Assembly (NCBI GenBank): GCA_030694975.1
Contig: JAUYTU010000019.1
Location: 1 to 64,000, forward strand
Source of the DNA: Erysipelotrichaceae bacterium
Lineage (GTDB): Bacteria > Bacillota_I > Bacilli_A > Erysipelotrichales > Erysipelotrichaceae
DNA: 64,000 nucleotides
Direction of reading: 5' to 3'
Shown: one piece after another, positions 33,437-39,728 of the stretch
Position numbering within the stretch: the first letter of the stretch is position 1
Layout of the letters: each line of letters starts with the position of its first letter
Program-made: the position numbers and the translations under genes
The notes under the pieces: generated by a model
What the model was told of the DNA's origin: nothing
Seen by the model: only the letters and a program-made list of their open reading frames with translations
Database searches by the model: none

Positions 33437-34201
33437 ATGAAATTATTTGCTTCAGATTATGACGGGACTTTGCATTTAAATGGTGAAGTCTCGCAAGATA
33501 CATTGGATATGATTCATAAGTTTCGCCAACAGGGAAACCTTTTTGGTATTGCGACCGGTCGTTCGATTGGTTCGATTGTTTCGGAAATTGAAAAATACGG
33601 AGTTCCGGTAGATTTTTTGGTAGGTAACAATGGCAGTATCGTGATGAATCAGCATCGTGAGGAACTGTTTTACCAGTTAATGGATTTTGAGATCTGTATG
33701 GAAATCGTCAACAGTATCCCTCAGGATAAAGTCGCTTTTTATGGGATCAGTGACGGTTATAAGTTTGGGTTGCATGATGCGACGTATACTACAGACTTTG
33801 TGGATCAATTGATCGACATTAAGGATATTATTAAAGAGAAGACGGCCGTCGGTATTTTCGTTAGGTTCAATCAAGAAGGACTTTCACATTATTATGCGGA
33901 CCTTTGGAATCAGAAGTATCACGGGATCATAAAAGCATATCCATTTTATGATGGCGTCGATGTCGTTTCTTATGGAATCACAAAAAAGTCGGGGATATTT
34001 CATATCAATGATTACTTTGAGTTTGATGGTCCGATCTATACGATTGGTGATTCGTTCAACGATATTCCGATGATCAAAGGGTTCAATGGCTTTGCGATGT
34101 GCAGTGGTGAGGACGCGGTCAAAGAAGTGGCTTCCCAGTGCTTTGACACGGTTGCGGATGCCCTGCGTTTTGTTATGAATCAAGATGAAGTGAAGTCTTG
34201 A
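33437..34201 (+). CDS. Cof-type HAD phosphatase
   Basis: A 254-residue class IIB HAD hydrolase: motif I SDYDGTL at residues 5-11, T in GIATGRS, C2 cap in the middle, motif III/IV KKSGIFH and GDSFNDIPMI. Family members dephosphorylate sugar phosphates or flavin intermediates; the substrate is open. The start at 33437 follows AAGGAAGTGGTG. Its last 111 coding bases recur exactly at 38170-38280. Confidence 0.85.
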   Translation: MKLFASDYDGTLHLNGEVSQDTLDMIHKFRQQGNLFGIATGRSIGSIVSEIEKYGVPVDFLVGNNGSIVMNQHREELFYQLMDFEICMEIVNSIPQDKVAFYGISDGYKFGLHDATYTTDFVDQLIDIKDIIKEKTAVGIFVRFNQEGLSHYYADLWNQKYHGIIKAYPFYDGVDVVSYGITKKSGIFHINDYFEFDGPIYTIGDSFNDIPMIKGFNGFAMCSGEDAVKEVASQCFDTVADALRFVMNQDEVKS

Positions 34202-34312
34202 TTTCATCGACAGTTGTTGTATGCTAAACTAGCATTTACGCGAAATTGGCCGACGCACTAGACTTAGGATCAAGATGGCAACCATGGGGGTTCGAGTCCC
34301 TTCACGCGCACC
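34091..34312 (+). repeat. Left copy of HAD-3'-end plus tRNA-Leu duplication
   Basis: Bases 34091-34205 are identical to 38170-38284 (115 of 115). Similarity continues, with changes, through the tRNA-Leu CCA at 34312 and 38399. This is the left boundary of the island. Confidence 0.9.
34232..34312 (+). pseudogene. Degenerate tRNA-Leu
   Basis: The T-arm, 3' acceptor strand and CCA match the intact tRNA-Leu at 38317, and the anticodon loop CTTAGGA survives. The 5' acceptor strand GCGCGTG is replaced, and the anticodon stem is broken (TCTAG became TCAAG), so it should not fold or charge. A candidate promoter (TTGATT at 34198-34203, TATGCT at 34220-34225) remains. Confidence 0.85.
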
Positions 34313-34499
34313 AAATTAGTAAGTATTCGCAGTGCAAATCTCTATGAAAAACCTTTCACGAAAGGGCCCGGTGCCGAAGCAAAAGACTGAGGTAACTATC
34401 TTAATCATAATCTACTAATGGTTAAATCCATCGTTAATAAATATCTGAGTTAATTAGAAGTGAGCAGAGACTAAAACGCGCCGAGCCATAGTAAGAGGA

Positions 34500-35245
34500 T
34501 CACAGCAATATGAAACATCACGACCATGCTTAAATGGAACATGCACCAGAAGTTGCGCAGAAACCAATACCCACGGATCCAGTAGATATAATAAGATGAA
34601 TCATAACTCTCATTCGAATACGAATTATAGATCAGAAAAACATACGGGGTAAGATGATCACCATAATCATCACTTAATGATGGTGAATGATTTCAAACGT
34701 AGATTCTTGGTATCATTATTAATTACAATTCCTGTACTATTGCTCTCTCCGATAATCCCAATGTTCATGAATGTTAACTGGTAATTTTCAGGGGATACAT
34801 ATTTATTGTTTGCACACTCTTCCGTACTTTTCATTTATGGAGAAAAACCCTTCTTGGCAGGTGCTGTTGAAGAATTGAAGCAGAAGACGCCAGCTATGAT
34901 GACCTTAATCGCCCTTGCGATTTCGACCGCTTACATATTTAGTGCACTGACAGTTTTCGTTCTTTTAGGCAATGACTTTTTTGGGGTTTGGCAACGTAGA
35001 TAACAATCATGTTGCTCGGTCACTGGATCGAGATGAAATCAATCATGGGGGTTTCCAGAGCGCTGGTAGAATTAATCAAATTGATGCCCGAAATCGCGTA
35101 TGCCATCCAACCCAACGGCGAAACCGCAGATGTCATGATGAGATATTTAAAAGAAGGGGACATCGTATTGGTAGAACCTGATCGACTAATTATTTCGCGT
35201 AATTTAATGATCAAACCAGGGAAAGCCGATGCTAACGGAGTCCCT
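34500..35245 (+). pseudogene. Copper-transporting P-type ATPase (CopB-like), decayed N-terminal third
   Basis: Reading across several frames gives a His-rich start (MKHHDHA, HHNHHLM), then VNDFKRRFLVSLLITIPVLLLSP, a stop, GDTYLLFA, KTPAMMTLIALAISTAYIFSA and, after a frameshift, MLLGHWIEMKSIMG and LKEGDIVLVEPD. These are in-order blocks of the CopB transmembrane and actuator region. At least three in-frame stops and a frameshift make it non-functional. The phosphorylation (DKTGT) domain is absent here. Confidence 0.8.
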
Positions 35246-35379
35246 TTTAATTCACATTTTTTTGAGGAACTAAAGAGAAATCACATAAAAGACCTTTCGA
35301 AAGTCGTAAATCTACATAAGTTATTCATAATGATTTGGTAAAATGGTTACTCAACCAAAATGGAAATTGCTATGAATTC

Positions 35380-35760
35380 TCTTGAAAGCAAATTACATTT
35401 GAAACCGACTCTGATGGCCAACGATGAAATGAAAACATCTATGTAAACCGCAATCGAAGAGAAATTAACAGGCTTCAAACTTTGTCACGGACATCGTTAT
35501 ACAAGTATTAACGTGACATCAAAAAGCTCTATTCAGTGGGCATCGAAGTCTCAATGATTACCGGAATTATAAAAAGTCCGCGAACGCGATTGGACTGCAA
35601 TGGTCAATATTAAGTTGTACCGGATTAATGAAATCGCGAAGGCAATATTAATGTGCGGAATAAACAGCCTTTGTTACTTTGGGTATAGATATTGAAGATT
35701 TGATCACTCGGAACGCTGTTGAAAAAGCGGGGTACAAGGCGACAGATTATGTATTGTCAT
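35380..35760 (+). pseudogene. Further heavy-metal ATPase remnants
   Basis: Positions 35518-35565 read IKKLYSVGIEVSMITG, which fits the P-domain hinge of metal ATPases (family consensus ends MITGD). Positions 35670-35753 read FVTLGIDIEDLITRNAVEKAG and on, resembling the end of a heavy-metal-associated domain. Stops and frame changes separate them. They probably come from one or two deleted copper ATPase genes. Confidence 0.45.
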
Positions 35761-35962
35761 ATGGTATTCAATATTGAGTATTAAAGCCATCCTTTGATGA
35801 TCAAGGATGACCTTTCATTCACAGAGAATATTTCAACCTCCATGCTCGGCATAAATATGCTTCTATATTTAATAACTGTGCTCCTAACCTTCAAGAAAGT
35901 ATTCACATAATCATAAGATTGGTAATATGCTAACTCGATTTTTGTTAAGAAAGCGGTTAAAA

Positions 35963-37273
35963 ATGGAAAAATATGGACTAATTAAATCATTTATCATTTA
36001 TAGTATGATTGCGTTTATACTAACCGGTATAATTTTATCTCAAATCACTTATAGTCATATTAGGAAAGACGACTTATCAAATATTGTTGAAATAGCTACT
36101 GTTTCAACAAAAAGCATAGTCAAAAATAATCTTGAAAAGGTAGATTTTGGTCAAGTATTTTCTGCTTCAAAAGTACAAGAGATTGAATCGAATCTTAATG
36201 AATTTATGAGTGCATTTAGCATTGAATCAATTACAGTATTAAACAATAAAAGGGAAATTGTTATGTCGACAGGTGAATGGCCATTTTCGGTAGAGGAGAA
36301 GCAGAATAAATTGAATCTCGACAAGATTATCAATCATAGTTTACCTTACATCGTTTCTGATGCTTTTGTTGCAAACGAATCAGCAAGTACGAAATCAAAT
36401 ATAACCTATTTCAATTTTTTTATAACTGTGTATTACGAAAATGGAGTTGAAGGAGTGTTTGTCTTGCGAATGCCTTCTAAATCTATCAGTGCACATGCCG
36501 ATTTACTCACTCAAGAGATAGCATTGGCGCTTACCGGAGGACTACTTTTGCTTTTTCTATTATTAATTGGTTTACTTTATAAAACTTCCAAAACTTTGAT
36601 TAACCAGAATGAGCACCTGAATATGCGAAAAAATGAGGTTGAGGAATCATATAAACGCTTAGATGACTCATATAAAAGTACGGTGATTGCAATGTCCAAT
36701 GCAGTTGATGCCAGAGATTCATATACTGCTGGCCATTCTAACAGAGTGTCAGAAATATCAATATTGTTAGGCCAAGAATTAGGATTATCAGATACTGATT
36801 TAAAGAATCTGCATTATGCTACCCTATTTCATGATATTGGGAAGATCGGGATTTCGGACAGCATCTTAAACAAGAATGGAAAGTTGAGTAATGTAGAGTA
36901 CGAAATTATTAAAGAGCATCCGGACATTGGCGTTAAAATACTCAAAGGTATAGATTTTCTCGCTGATGCACTAACAATCATTCGTCATCATCATGAAAGG
37001 TTTGATGGTGGAGGATATCCATGCGGTTTGAAAGGTGAAGAAATCCCGTTAGGATCAAGAATTATCGCCATTGCAGATACATATGATGCGATGACTTCTA
37101 ATCGGCCATACCGATTAGGAATAAATCATGAGTTAGCTTTAAGCAAAATCATCGAAAATAAAGGATCTCAATTTGATAGCAAATTGATTGATGTATTTTT
37201 AATGCTTGAAAAAAGGATTTATACTCAAAAACAAACAAATATGCTTATAGATAGAGTCGAAAAGTTACTATGA
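35963..37273 (+). CDS. Membrane HD-GYP domain c-di-GMP phosphodiesterase
   Basis: A 436-residue protein with a membrane segment near residue 20, an extracytoplasmic sensor region (about 35-175), a second membrane segment (about 185-205), a short coiled coil, then an HD-GYP domain (about 230-430). Metal and catalytic residues are intact: FHDIGKIGI, HHHERFDGGGYP and DTYDAMTSNRPYR. It should hydrolyse cyclic di-GMP. The start at 35963 is preferred, but 35927 is possible; neither has a strong binding site. Stop overlaps the next gene by ATGA. Confidence 0.85.
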   Translation: MEKYGLIKSFIIYSMIAFILTGIILSQITYSHIRKDDLSNIVEIATVSTKSIVKNNLEKVDFGQVFSASKVQEIESNLNEFMSAFSIESITVLNNKREIVMSTGEWPFSVEEKQNKLNLDKIINHSLPYIVSDAFVANESASTKSNITYFNFFITVYYENGVEGVFVLRMPSKSISAHADLLTQEIALALTGGLLLLFLLLIGLLYKTSKTLINQNEHLNMRKNEVEESYKRLDDSYKSTVIAMSNAVDARDSYTAGHSNRVSEISILLGQELGLSDTDLKNLHYATLFHDIGKIGISDSILNKNGKLSNVEYEIIKEHPDIGVKILKGIDFLADALTIIRHHHERFDGGGYPCGLKGEEIPLGSRIIAIADTYDAMTSNRPYRLGINHELALSKIIENKGSQFDSKLIDVFLMLEKRIYTQKQTNMLIDRVEKLL

Positions 37274-37962
37274 AAAAGATGCATATTGCAATTATGTTTG
37301 TGACTTTTACAACTTTGGGAGCACTTTTTGGATTAATACTTCACTCAGTATTGATTTCGGCAAGGGGTAATTTTCTCATCCATTGTTTATTGATTGGTGG
37401 TGTATTTGGTTTACTTAATTCAATCACTTCTCTTTACTTTTTGAGAAAAAATAATATGTTAGTAAGCACTAATCTTAAACTGGACTTAGAAATCCGAAAA
37501 GACAAACTGACAGATTTATTCAATAGGAAAGCGTTTGATTATGATCTTAATACTATTTATTTAAACGAAGTCTGCTCAGTTATATTTCTTGATGTGGATA
37601 ATTTTAGAGATTTTAACAATGTGTATGGTCACCAAGTTGGAGATAATGTACTTATCGAGTGTGCGAGAATCATTAAAAGTTGCATAAGAGAAAGTGATAT
37701 GTCGTATCGATATGGTGGGGAGGAGTTCATCGTGATATTACGCAATTGTATAAAAAAAGAAGCTGGTAAAATTGCACAAAATATCGTTAAAAATATAAGT
37801 TGCAGAGAAAATGGATCTTTACCAATGATGACAATTTCTGCTGGTGTTTCCTCAATGCCTGAAGATGCTTCTACGATTGAGCAAATAGTTAGAGCCAGTG
37901 ATCTAGCATTGATCTCAGCTAAAAAGCTAGGTAAAAATCAAGTGGTATTATATGAAATATAA
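37270..37962 (+). CDS. Membrane GGDEF diguanylate cyclase
   Basis: A 230-residue protein with two N-terminal membrane segments (about 5-28 and 35-58) and a GGDEF domain. The active site reads GGEEF (in YRYGGEEFIVIL) and the upstream metal Asp is in FLDVDNFRDFN, so it looks catalytically competent. Co-translated with the HD-GYP gene, it would make what its partner degrades. I see no RxxD inhibitory site at the usual position, only KSCIRESD. Confidence 0.87.
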   Translation: MKKMHIAIMFVTFTTLGALFGLILHSVLISARGNFLIHCLLIGGVFGLLNSITSLYFLRKNNMLVSTNLKLDLEIRKDKLTDLFNRKAFDYDLNTIYLNEVCSVIFLDVDNFRDFNNVYGHQVGDNVLIECARIIKSCIRESDMSYRYGGEEFIVILRNCIKKEAGKIAQNIVKNISCRENGSLPMMTISAGVSSMPEDASTIEQIVRASDLALISAKKLGKNQVVLYEI

Positions 37963-38276
37963 AATCCAATCATTTGTAAATAAGAGATCATACTCTAATT
38001 TTAGTCTAACTGAGAAGTTGTCAGATGTCTGATTCTAGAATAGGGCGGTTCCGTAGAACCACTATGTTGAAGTTGATTACGTACAACGGGGAATATAGTA
38101 TCGACAAATCATAGAAATTTCATTTTGTTGAAAATCTCTTGTTTTCCTCTTGTTCCATATTTTCATACGTTTGCGATGTGCAGTGGTGAGGACGCGGTCA
38201 AAGAAGTGGCTTCCCAGTGCTTTGACACGGTTGCGGATGCCCTGCGTTTTGTTATGAATCAAGATGAAGTGAAGTC

Positions 38277-38305
38277 TTGATTTCGATGTCAGTTGTTGTT
38301 ATAAT
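38277..38305 (+). promoter_or_regulatory. Promoter of tRNA-Leu, starting inside the HAD-fragment stop codon
   Basis: TTGATT (38277-38282) overlaps the TGA of the HAD sequence; a 17-base spacer leads to TATAAT (38300-38305), 12 bases before the tRNA. Confidence 0.8.
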
Positions 38306-38316
38306 AAGTTGGCATT

Positions 38317-38399
38317 GCGCGTGTGGCGAAATTGGCAGACGCACTAGACTTAGGATCTAGCGGGCAACCATGGGGGTTCGAGTCCCTTCACGCGCACCA
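38317..38399 (+). tRNA. tRNA-Leu (TAG)
   Basis: An 83-base class II tRNA: acceptor GCGCGTG with CACGCGC, anticodon stem CTAGA/TCTAG with loop CTTAGGA (TAG), short variable arm, GGTTCGAGTCC T-arm, encoded CCA. Confidence 0.95.
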
Positions 38400-38470: not shown

Positions 38471-38496
38471 TATATTTCGATTATAGTCGAAATATA
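38471..38496. promoter_or_regulatory. Palindromic operator copy 1
   Basis: Perfect 10-bp arms TATATTTCGA and TCGAAATATA around TTATAG. Centred 40 bp upstream of a second, inverted copy. Confidence 0.65.
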
Positions 38497-38498
38497 GG

Positions 38499-38534
38499 TT
38501 GATTATTTAATATATTTCGACTATAATCGAAATA
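38499..38534 (+). promoter_or_regulatory. Promoter with embedded palindromic operator copy 2
   Basis: TTGATT (38499-38504), 17 bases, TATAAT (38522-38527). The -10 box lies within palindrome TATATTTCGA, CTATAA, TCGAAATA (38511-38532). A protein bound here would block transcription of the ATPase gene. Confidence 0.7.
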
Positions 38535-38546
38535 GAGGTGGGTATA

Positions 38547-39728
38547 ATGATTAAAAGAGAGCGGTATCAACGATTACTAAACAACTATAAAGATAAGCCT
38601 TTTATCAAGGTTGTCACCGGAATCAGAAGAAGTGGAAAATCGGTGCTACTGGATCTTCACATTCAGAACTTATTGGAACAAGGTGTCCCAAGTGATAATA
38701 TATTCAAACTCAATTTTGAATTGCCCGATAACTTTCACATAACCAACTACTTGGAGTTATCAAGGATAGTTTTGGATTGGTCTAAAGACAAAGTGGGAGT
38801 CTTATATATCTTTTTAGACGAAGTCGGTAGGGTTAGTGAATGGGAAAAGGCGGTCAATGGATTTCATGCCATGAACAAATTTGATATTTATATCACTGGT
38901 TCTAATGCAGATCTTCTTTCTTCAGATCTATCTACTTTTTTAGCTGGCCGATATGTGGAGATTTTAGTTCATCCTTTTTCATATCAAGAATTTCTACAAG
39001 TTCACAAAAATGCAAAATTTACGGACTATCTTGTATTTGGCGGATTGCCTTCAATATCTGTATTCAATCTCGAATATGAGCCATCCATGACGGTTCTGAG
39101 AGATAGTTTTGGGTCAGCTGTTTTGCAAGATGTAATACAACGATATGCAATCAGAAATACAGTCGTACTTGAAAAACTCATTGTGTATCTCTGTGCAAAT
39201 ACCTCTTTGACCTTTTCGGCTTTATCCATTTCTAAATATCTTAAATCTCAACACATCTTAGCAACTGTTGATACAGTACTGAATTATATCAATATATTAG
39301 TGAGTGCATTTATAGTATACAAAGCCCCTCGATATGATCTTCTTGGGAAATCAATTATGAAAACTGAAGAGAAATACTTTATTGCTGACCATGGTTTCAG
39401 AGAGGCAATGGTGGGGAAAAATACAAATTCTATTGAACTTATTCTGGAAACTATCGTTTATATCGAACTGATCCGACGTGGGTTCCAAGTATTCATTGGA
39501 AAAATTGATCAGTTTGAGATTGATTTTGTGGCAGTTAAACAGGATTACAAAGAATACTACCAAGTATCATATGTACTTAACTCACCTAAAACTCGAGAAA
39601 GAGAATTCAGTGTTTATCATCGTGTTAATGATTTCTTTCCAAAGTTCGTATTATCCATGGACGAAGTAGATTTTTCTCAGGAGGGTATCATCCATAAAAA
39701 CATTGTTCAGTTTCTGTTGGAAAAATAA
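38547..39728 (+). CDS. AAA ATPase with DUF4143 C-terminal domain
   Basis: A 393-residue protein. Walker A GIRRSGKSVLL at about residue 28, Walker B IFLDEVGR at about 93, sensor ITGSNADLLSS, then YVEILVHPFSYQEF, typical of the AAA_14/DUF4143 group. The C-terminal third (IELIRRGFQVFIGKIDQFEIDFVA) is restriction-endonuclease-like. These ATPases are widespread and of unclear function. Start at 38547 after GAGGTGGG; the in-frame GTG at 38538 lies in that site. Probably autoregulated through the two palindromes. Confidence 0.85.
   Translation: MIKRERYQRLLNNYKDKPFIKVVTGIRRSGKSVLLDLHIQNLLEQGVPSDNIFKLNFELPDNFHITNYLELSRIVLDWSKDKVGVLYIFLDEVGRVSEWEKAVNGFHAMNKFDIYITGSNADLLSSDLSTFLAGRYVEILVHPFSYQEFLQVHKNAKFTDYLVFGGLPSISVFNLEYEPSMTVLRDSFGSAVLQDVIQRYAIRNTVVLEKLIVYLCANTSLTFSALSISKYLKSQHILATVDTVLNYINILVSAFIVYKAPRYDLLGKSIMKTEEKYFIADHGFREAMVGKNTNSIELILETIVYIELIRRGFQVFIGKIDQFEIDFVAVKQDYKEYYQVSYVLNSPKTREREFSVYHRVNDFFPKFVLSMDEVDFSQEGIIHKNIVQFLLEK

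Follow-up and report, generated by a model that had tools for sequence, protein, structure and literature searches.

The window, the 64,000 nt stretch of DNA analysed here, carries at its tRNA-Leu(TAG) gene a real, apparently species-specific and decaying island, flanked by a duplication that is longer than usual and lacking a recognizable integrase gene. With moderate confidence we read it as the remnant of a genomic island that inserted at this locus in one species by way of a circle carrying a copy of the HAD gene end and the tRNA, followed by later conversion. The 3' end of the HAD-family hydrolase gene and the tRNA-Leu(TAG) that follows it are present twice, at 34091–34313 and 38170–38399, about 4.1 kb apart and in the same orientation, as a direct repeat of about 230 bp per unit. 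The inserted segment (34206–38169, about 4 kb) is foreign-looking and partly decayed. The features of the region are as follows.

33437–34201, + strand: intact HAD-family hydrolase gene (Hydrolase_3; Pfam PF08282, E = 1.7e-30), which precedes tRNA-Leu in 4/4 same-genus full-site loci
34091–34205, + strand: left 115 nt exact repeat, which covers the HAD 3' end and the first 4 nt beyond the stop (alignment of the copies)
34206–34313, + strand: left spacer and predicted pseudo-tRNA-Leu (Rfam score, alignment of the copies, relatives)
34367–34459, + strand: remnant of a luxS 3' end (tblastn with LuxS residues 117–147 of G030, a genome from another genus of the same family, 61%, E = 3.8e-08; the Pfam LuxS match is weak, E = 0.098)
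34498–35314, + strand: pseudogene of a CopB-type P-type ATPase, residues 24–352 of about 760 (tblastn, E = 2e-99)
35315–35926, no strand assigned: decayed DNA of about 600 bases with no Pfam family (Pfam scan)
35927–37273, + strand: intact gene for an HD-GYP-type protein (Pfam HD_5, E = 2.4e-40)
37270–37962, + strand: intact gene for a GGDEF protein, overlapping the HD-GYP gene by 4 nt (Pfam GGDEF, E = 5.7e-37)
38170–38284, + strand: right 115 nt repeat, a HAD fragment without a gene (alignment of the copies)
38317–38399, + strand: intact tRNA-Leu(TAG), followed by a terminator as in the relatives (ARAGORN, relatives)

Alignment of the two copies gives 115 identical nucleotides (34091–34205 and 38170–38284), beyond which the spacer and the 5' part of the tRNA have diverged; the last 37 nt of the tRNA are then identical again (34277–34313 and 38363–38399). 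ARAGORN makes a single tRNA call, the right copy at 38317–38399, and the left tRNA scores 22.9 bits against the Rfam tRNA model, below the gathering score of 29. The left copy is thus a predicted pseudo-tRNA and the right copy is predicted to be intact. An earlier note, made from the sequence alone, had described 115 identical bases followed by a broken left and an intact right tRNA, and the alignment, ARAGORN and Rfam all agree with this; the duplication is as real as described there, but its 37 nt exact tRNA 3' end had been overlooked. A third copy of the unit is not found in the same genome; the next-best hit there, at 72%, is a tRNA-like stretch of contig C13. RNA folding of both tRNAs gave z-scores near 0 and was uninformative.

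Seven genomes of the genus, including that of the window, were searched for the site. All four relatives that hold it in full (G001, G002, G003 and G006) have one HAD–tRNA–terminator unit and no island; left out of this count were G005, whose contig begins within the HAD end, and G004, whose contig stops short of the tRNA. Because the island is absent from 4/4 full-site relatives, the segment 34206–38169 is, on this comparison, an insertion. The earlier note, which had proposed such a comparison, was therefore right to favour an inserted element over a plain tandem duplication. The right unit runs on into the same terminator as in the relatives, and the best explanation makes this unit, with the native terminator behind it, the source of the working tRNA. 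A terminator homology after the left tRNA seemed plausible by eye and was rejected, with 247 of 2000 shuffles scoring as well.

The segment downstream of tRNA-Leu(TAG) is variable, since the first gene after the tRNA differs among the genomes of the genus: it is lipoprotein-like in G001, G002 and G003, Fic in G006 and AAA_14/DUF4143 in G005 and the window. In the latter this ATPase gene occupies 38538–39728, with a 24 nt perfect inverted repeat upstream of it at 38473–38534. The gene after tRNA-Leu(TAG) in G024, from another genus, also resembles the AAA_14/DUF4143 gene by eye. In G005 the contig break falls within the HAD end next to tRNA-Leu, where a repeat of the segment in that genome would be expected to cause one.

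The left half of the island is wreckage, with the luxS 3' end and the CopB-type ATPase, and the right half holds the intact HD-GYP and GGDEF genes. Within 589 aligned bp the CopB pseudogene contains three in-frame stops and one frameshift. Its private changes number 40 in these 589 sites and fall on the three codon positions as 16/12/12, compared with 6/3/26 for the intact G030 gene. Because they are spread evenly over the codon positions, the CopB piece is judged to be in neutral decay. The segment 35181–35926 has no match to CopB, CopA, LuxS, HD-GYP or GGDEF that is better than those of shuffles; a CopA remnant suspected there by eye was rejected, with no CopA match and other matches no better than shuffles. 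Rfam found no c-di-GMP or other riboswitch upstream of copB. By eye, the GGDEF protein carries what we take to be a GGEEF motif with an RxxD site five residues before it, and the HD-GYP and GGDEF genes lie beside the copper-ATPase remnant.

Integrase and transposase families were not detected by Pfam in the intact ORFs of the island or in the scanned read-through frames, and over this range the earlier remark that no integrase is visible holds. An IS-borne composite insertion, which would have transposase genes at its ends, was also considered, and the same scan found no transposase family. The five PF00589 genes of the same genome are all located on other contigs.

The two units have decayed unevenly. 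In the left unit the promoter −10 element is altered and 6 nt of the 5' acceptor strand are deleted, while the tRNA body has four differences in 74 sites and its last 37 nt are untouched. The copies differ in 26 alignment columns, and in 17 of these (counted by eye) the left letter is unlike both the right copy and all five same-genus relatives, which there agree with the right copy. Because these columns are private to the left copy, it is taken to be the one that decayed, and its changes look like private decay and not like a diverged working tRNA. The uneven decay to which the earlier note drew attention is therefore real, but its proposal that the element brought its own diverged tRNA fits poorly with the private columns, the altered −10 element and the deleted and broken acceptor stem, all of which are decay-like.

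Over 112 compared columns no difference is seen in the right HAD piece, against six and seven in the closest relatives; this piece codes for nothing complete. At the decay rate of CopB (40 in 589), we calculate that 115 sites would stay free of differences with a probability of about 3e-4, which argues for a younger or a homogenized HAD piece; a separate conversion step is proposed because of this improbability. The timing argument would be weaker if CopB had decayed before the insertion, as it may have. We infer that homogenization best accounts for the identical HAD piece, and the phrase 'homogenised or recently recombined' of the earlier note stands in this conditional form. The uneven decay is the one interesting point and has an ordinary explanation, and the age of an insertion can be misjudged from identical flanking repeats.

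We propose that a DNA circle had captured a copy of the segment from the HAD 3' end to tRNA-Leu and held it alongside the cargo. A single crossover in the shared segment, whether by site-specific recombination at the 3' end of the tRNA or by homologous recombination, would have joined this circle to the chromosome and left one HAD-end/tRNA unit on each flank. An exact tRNA 3' end, here of 37 nt, is a typical attachment core. The right unit, on the side of the native terminator, would have taken over as the working tRNA, and the left tRNA, now redundant, would have decayed, as would the luxS–copB cargo. The right HAD fragment would have stayed or become identical to the HAD gene by later conversion, with the left HAD gene or an island-free strain as the possible donor. 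Had conversion run further from left to right, it would have broken the sole tRNA-Leu(TAG) detected; selection for this tRNA would therefore have ended it directly beyond the HAD gene. Against this history stand the failure to find an integrase or a remnant of one, the reversed side of the intact tRNA and the inclusion of the HAD end. The case itself adds no new mechanism; it illustrates how, through an island remnant at a tRNA, a second copy can take over the role of the sole tRNA-Leu(TAG) detected.

Close to the view of the earlier note, and possible but rather unlikely, is a recent integration in which an element with an already decayed tRNA and decayed cargo recombined homologously through its HAD end. 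This would agree with the 115 exact bases beside diverged ones and with the absence of the island from the genus relatives. The HAD piece on such an element would, however, have been as free to decay as the adjoining tRNA, so its identity would still need conversion, and most of the changes on the left are confined to that copy, with none of the five relatives sharing them. More doubtful is a tandem duplication of the HAD-end–tRNA–island segment with subsequent loss of the second island copy. Although the direct orientation and the reach of the unit beyond the tRNA favour it, an extra deletion is needed, and no island copy or piece follows the right tRNA, where the terminator and the AAA_14/DUF4143 gene are found as in G005. 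The segment 34300–38200 has no other copy in the same genome and does not recur after the second repeat.

Least probable, and very improbable in absolute terms, is an artefact of the assembly or library by which two molecules were joined through the 115-base repeat: the assembly is a draft of 42 contigs, but its k was probably 141, which exceeds the repeat, so both passages through it rest on spanning sequence. This k was derived from 81 contig ends: 34 that read N were set aside, and the other 47 include 21 pairs with exactly 141 bases in common. The assembly chimera considered in the earlier note is thus unlikely at the level of the graph, and a chimeric molecule could still have been the source of a junction. 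Judging by the unbroken contig with k = 141, an island-free form was not abundant in the sample.

In G030 a PF00589 phage integrase gene starts 243 nt after its tRNA-Leu(TAG), and for this reason the tRNA is probably used as an integration target in the family. G030 is the only one of 21 listed tRNA-Leu(TAG) loci with a tyrosine integrase noticed beside the tRNA; Pfam was applied to two downstream proteins of this list in all, and some loci have under 2 kb of sequence after the tRNA. In G008 a gene resembling a serine recombinase by eye lies about 1.2 kb after tRNA-Leu(TAG) (L090).

Island DNA is matched at E = 1e-20 or better in six of the 272 family genomes, its own included, and beyond its own genome only pieces match. 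The best match of CopB is in G030, with 83% DNA identity over 685 bp. The order HD-GYP–transposase–GGDEF–copB on G030:C63, compared with copB–HD-GYP–GGDEF in the window, would fit a circular permutation; the argument is not clean, as luxS lies directly before copB on G030:C18 (luxS–copB–copA). The transposase on G030:C63, between the HD-GYP and GGDEF genes, is truncated and of the mutator family (L045, 3560–4030). For the HD-GYP protein, 32 loci in named genomes gave best segments of at most 49% identity and no donor is named. The exact left pseudo-tRNA has 0 matches in viral contigs.

Among known systems, the ssrA islands of Dehalococcoides resemble the present island in lying at a single-copy RNA gene and in having the 3' end of that gene as a direct repeat on their flanks (PMC3146451). 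This repeat measures 20 bp, compared with about 230 bp in the window, and 16 ssrA islands hold an integration module with a serine recombinase, of which no counterpart was found in the window (PMC3146451). The metal-resistance genes of G030 (luxS–copB–copA, HD-GYP and GGDEF) are of the same types as those of the island, but they are intact, differ in gene order and have no tRNA gene on the stretches taken.

With tRNA-gene islands of the tyrosine-recombinase type, the window shares a tRNA-Leu target with an insertion at the gene and an empty site in relatives, direct repeats containing the tRNA 3' end on both flanks (37 nt exact) and foreign-looking cargo. It differs in that Pfam finds no integrase gene in the ORFs and scanned frames of the island and in that the repeat includes the tRNA promoter and the end of the preceding gene. 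Usual tRNA islands have the intact tRNA on the 5' side and only a 3' fragment on the far side, whereas the present island has its broken copy on the 5' side and the intact tRNA at the opposite end. Literature searches on duplications at tRNA islands listed no example of a gene-end/tRNA module. We think it highly unlikely that islands carrying a whole gene-end/promoter/tRNA module as attachment site form a class; if they did, insertion would swap the working tRNA of the host for the copy of the element, and the host would depend on the repeat end of the element. Because it departs from tRNA-gene islands in two defining features, we do not file the present island as a proven member, although it works like one.
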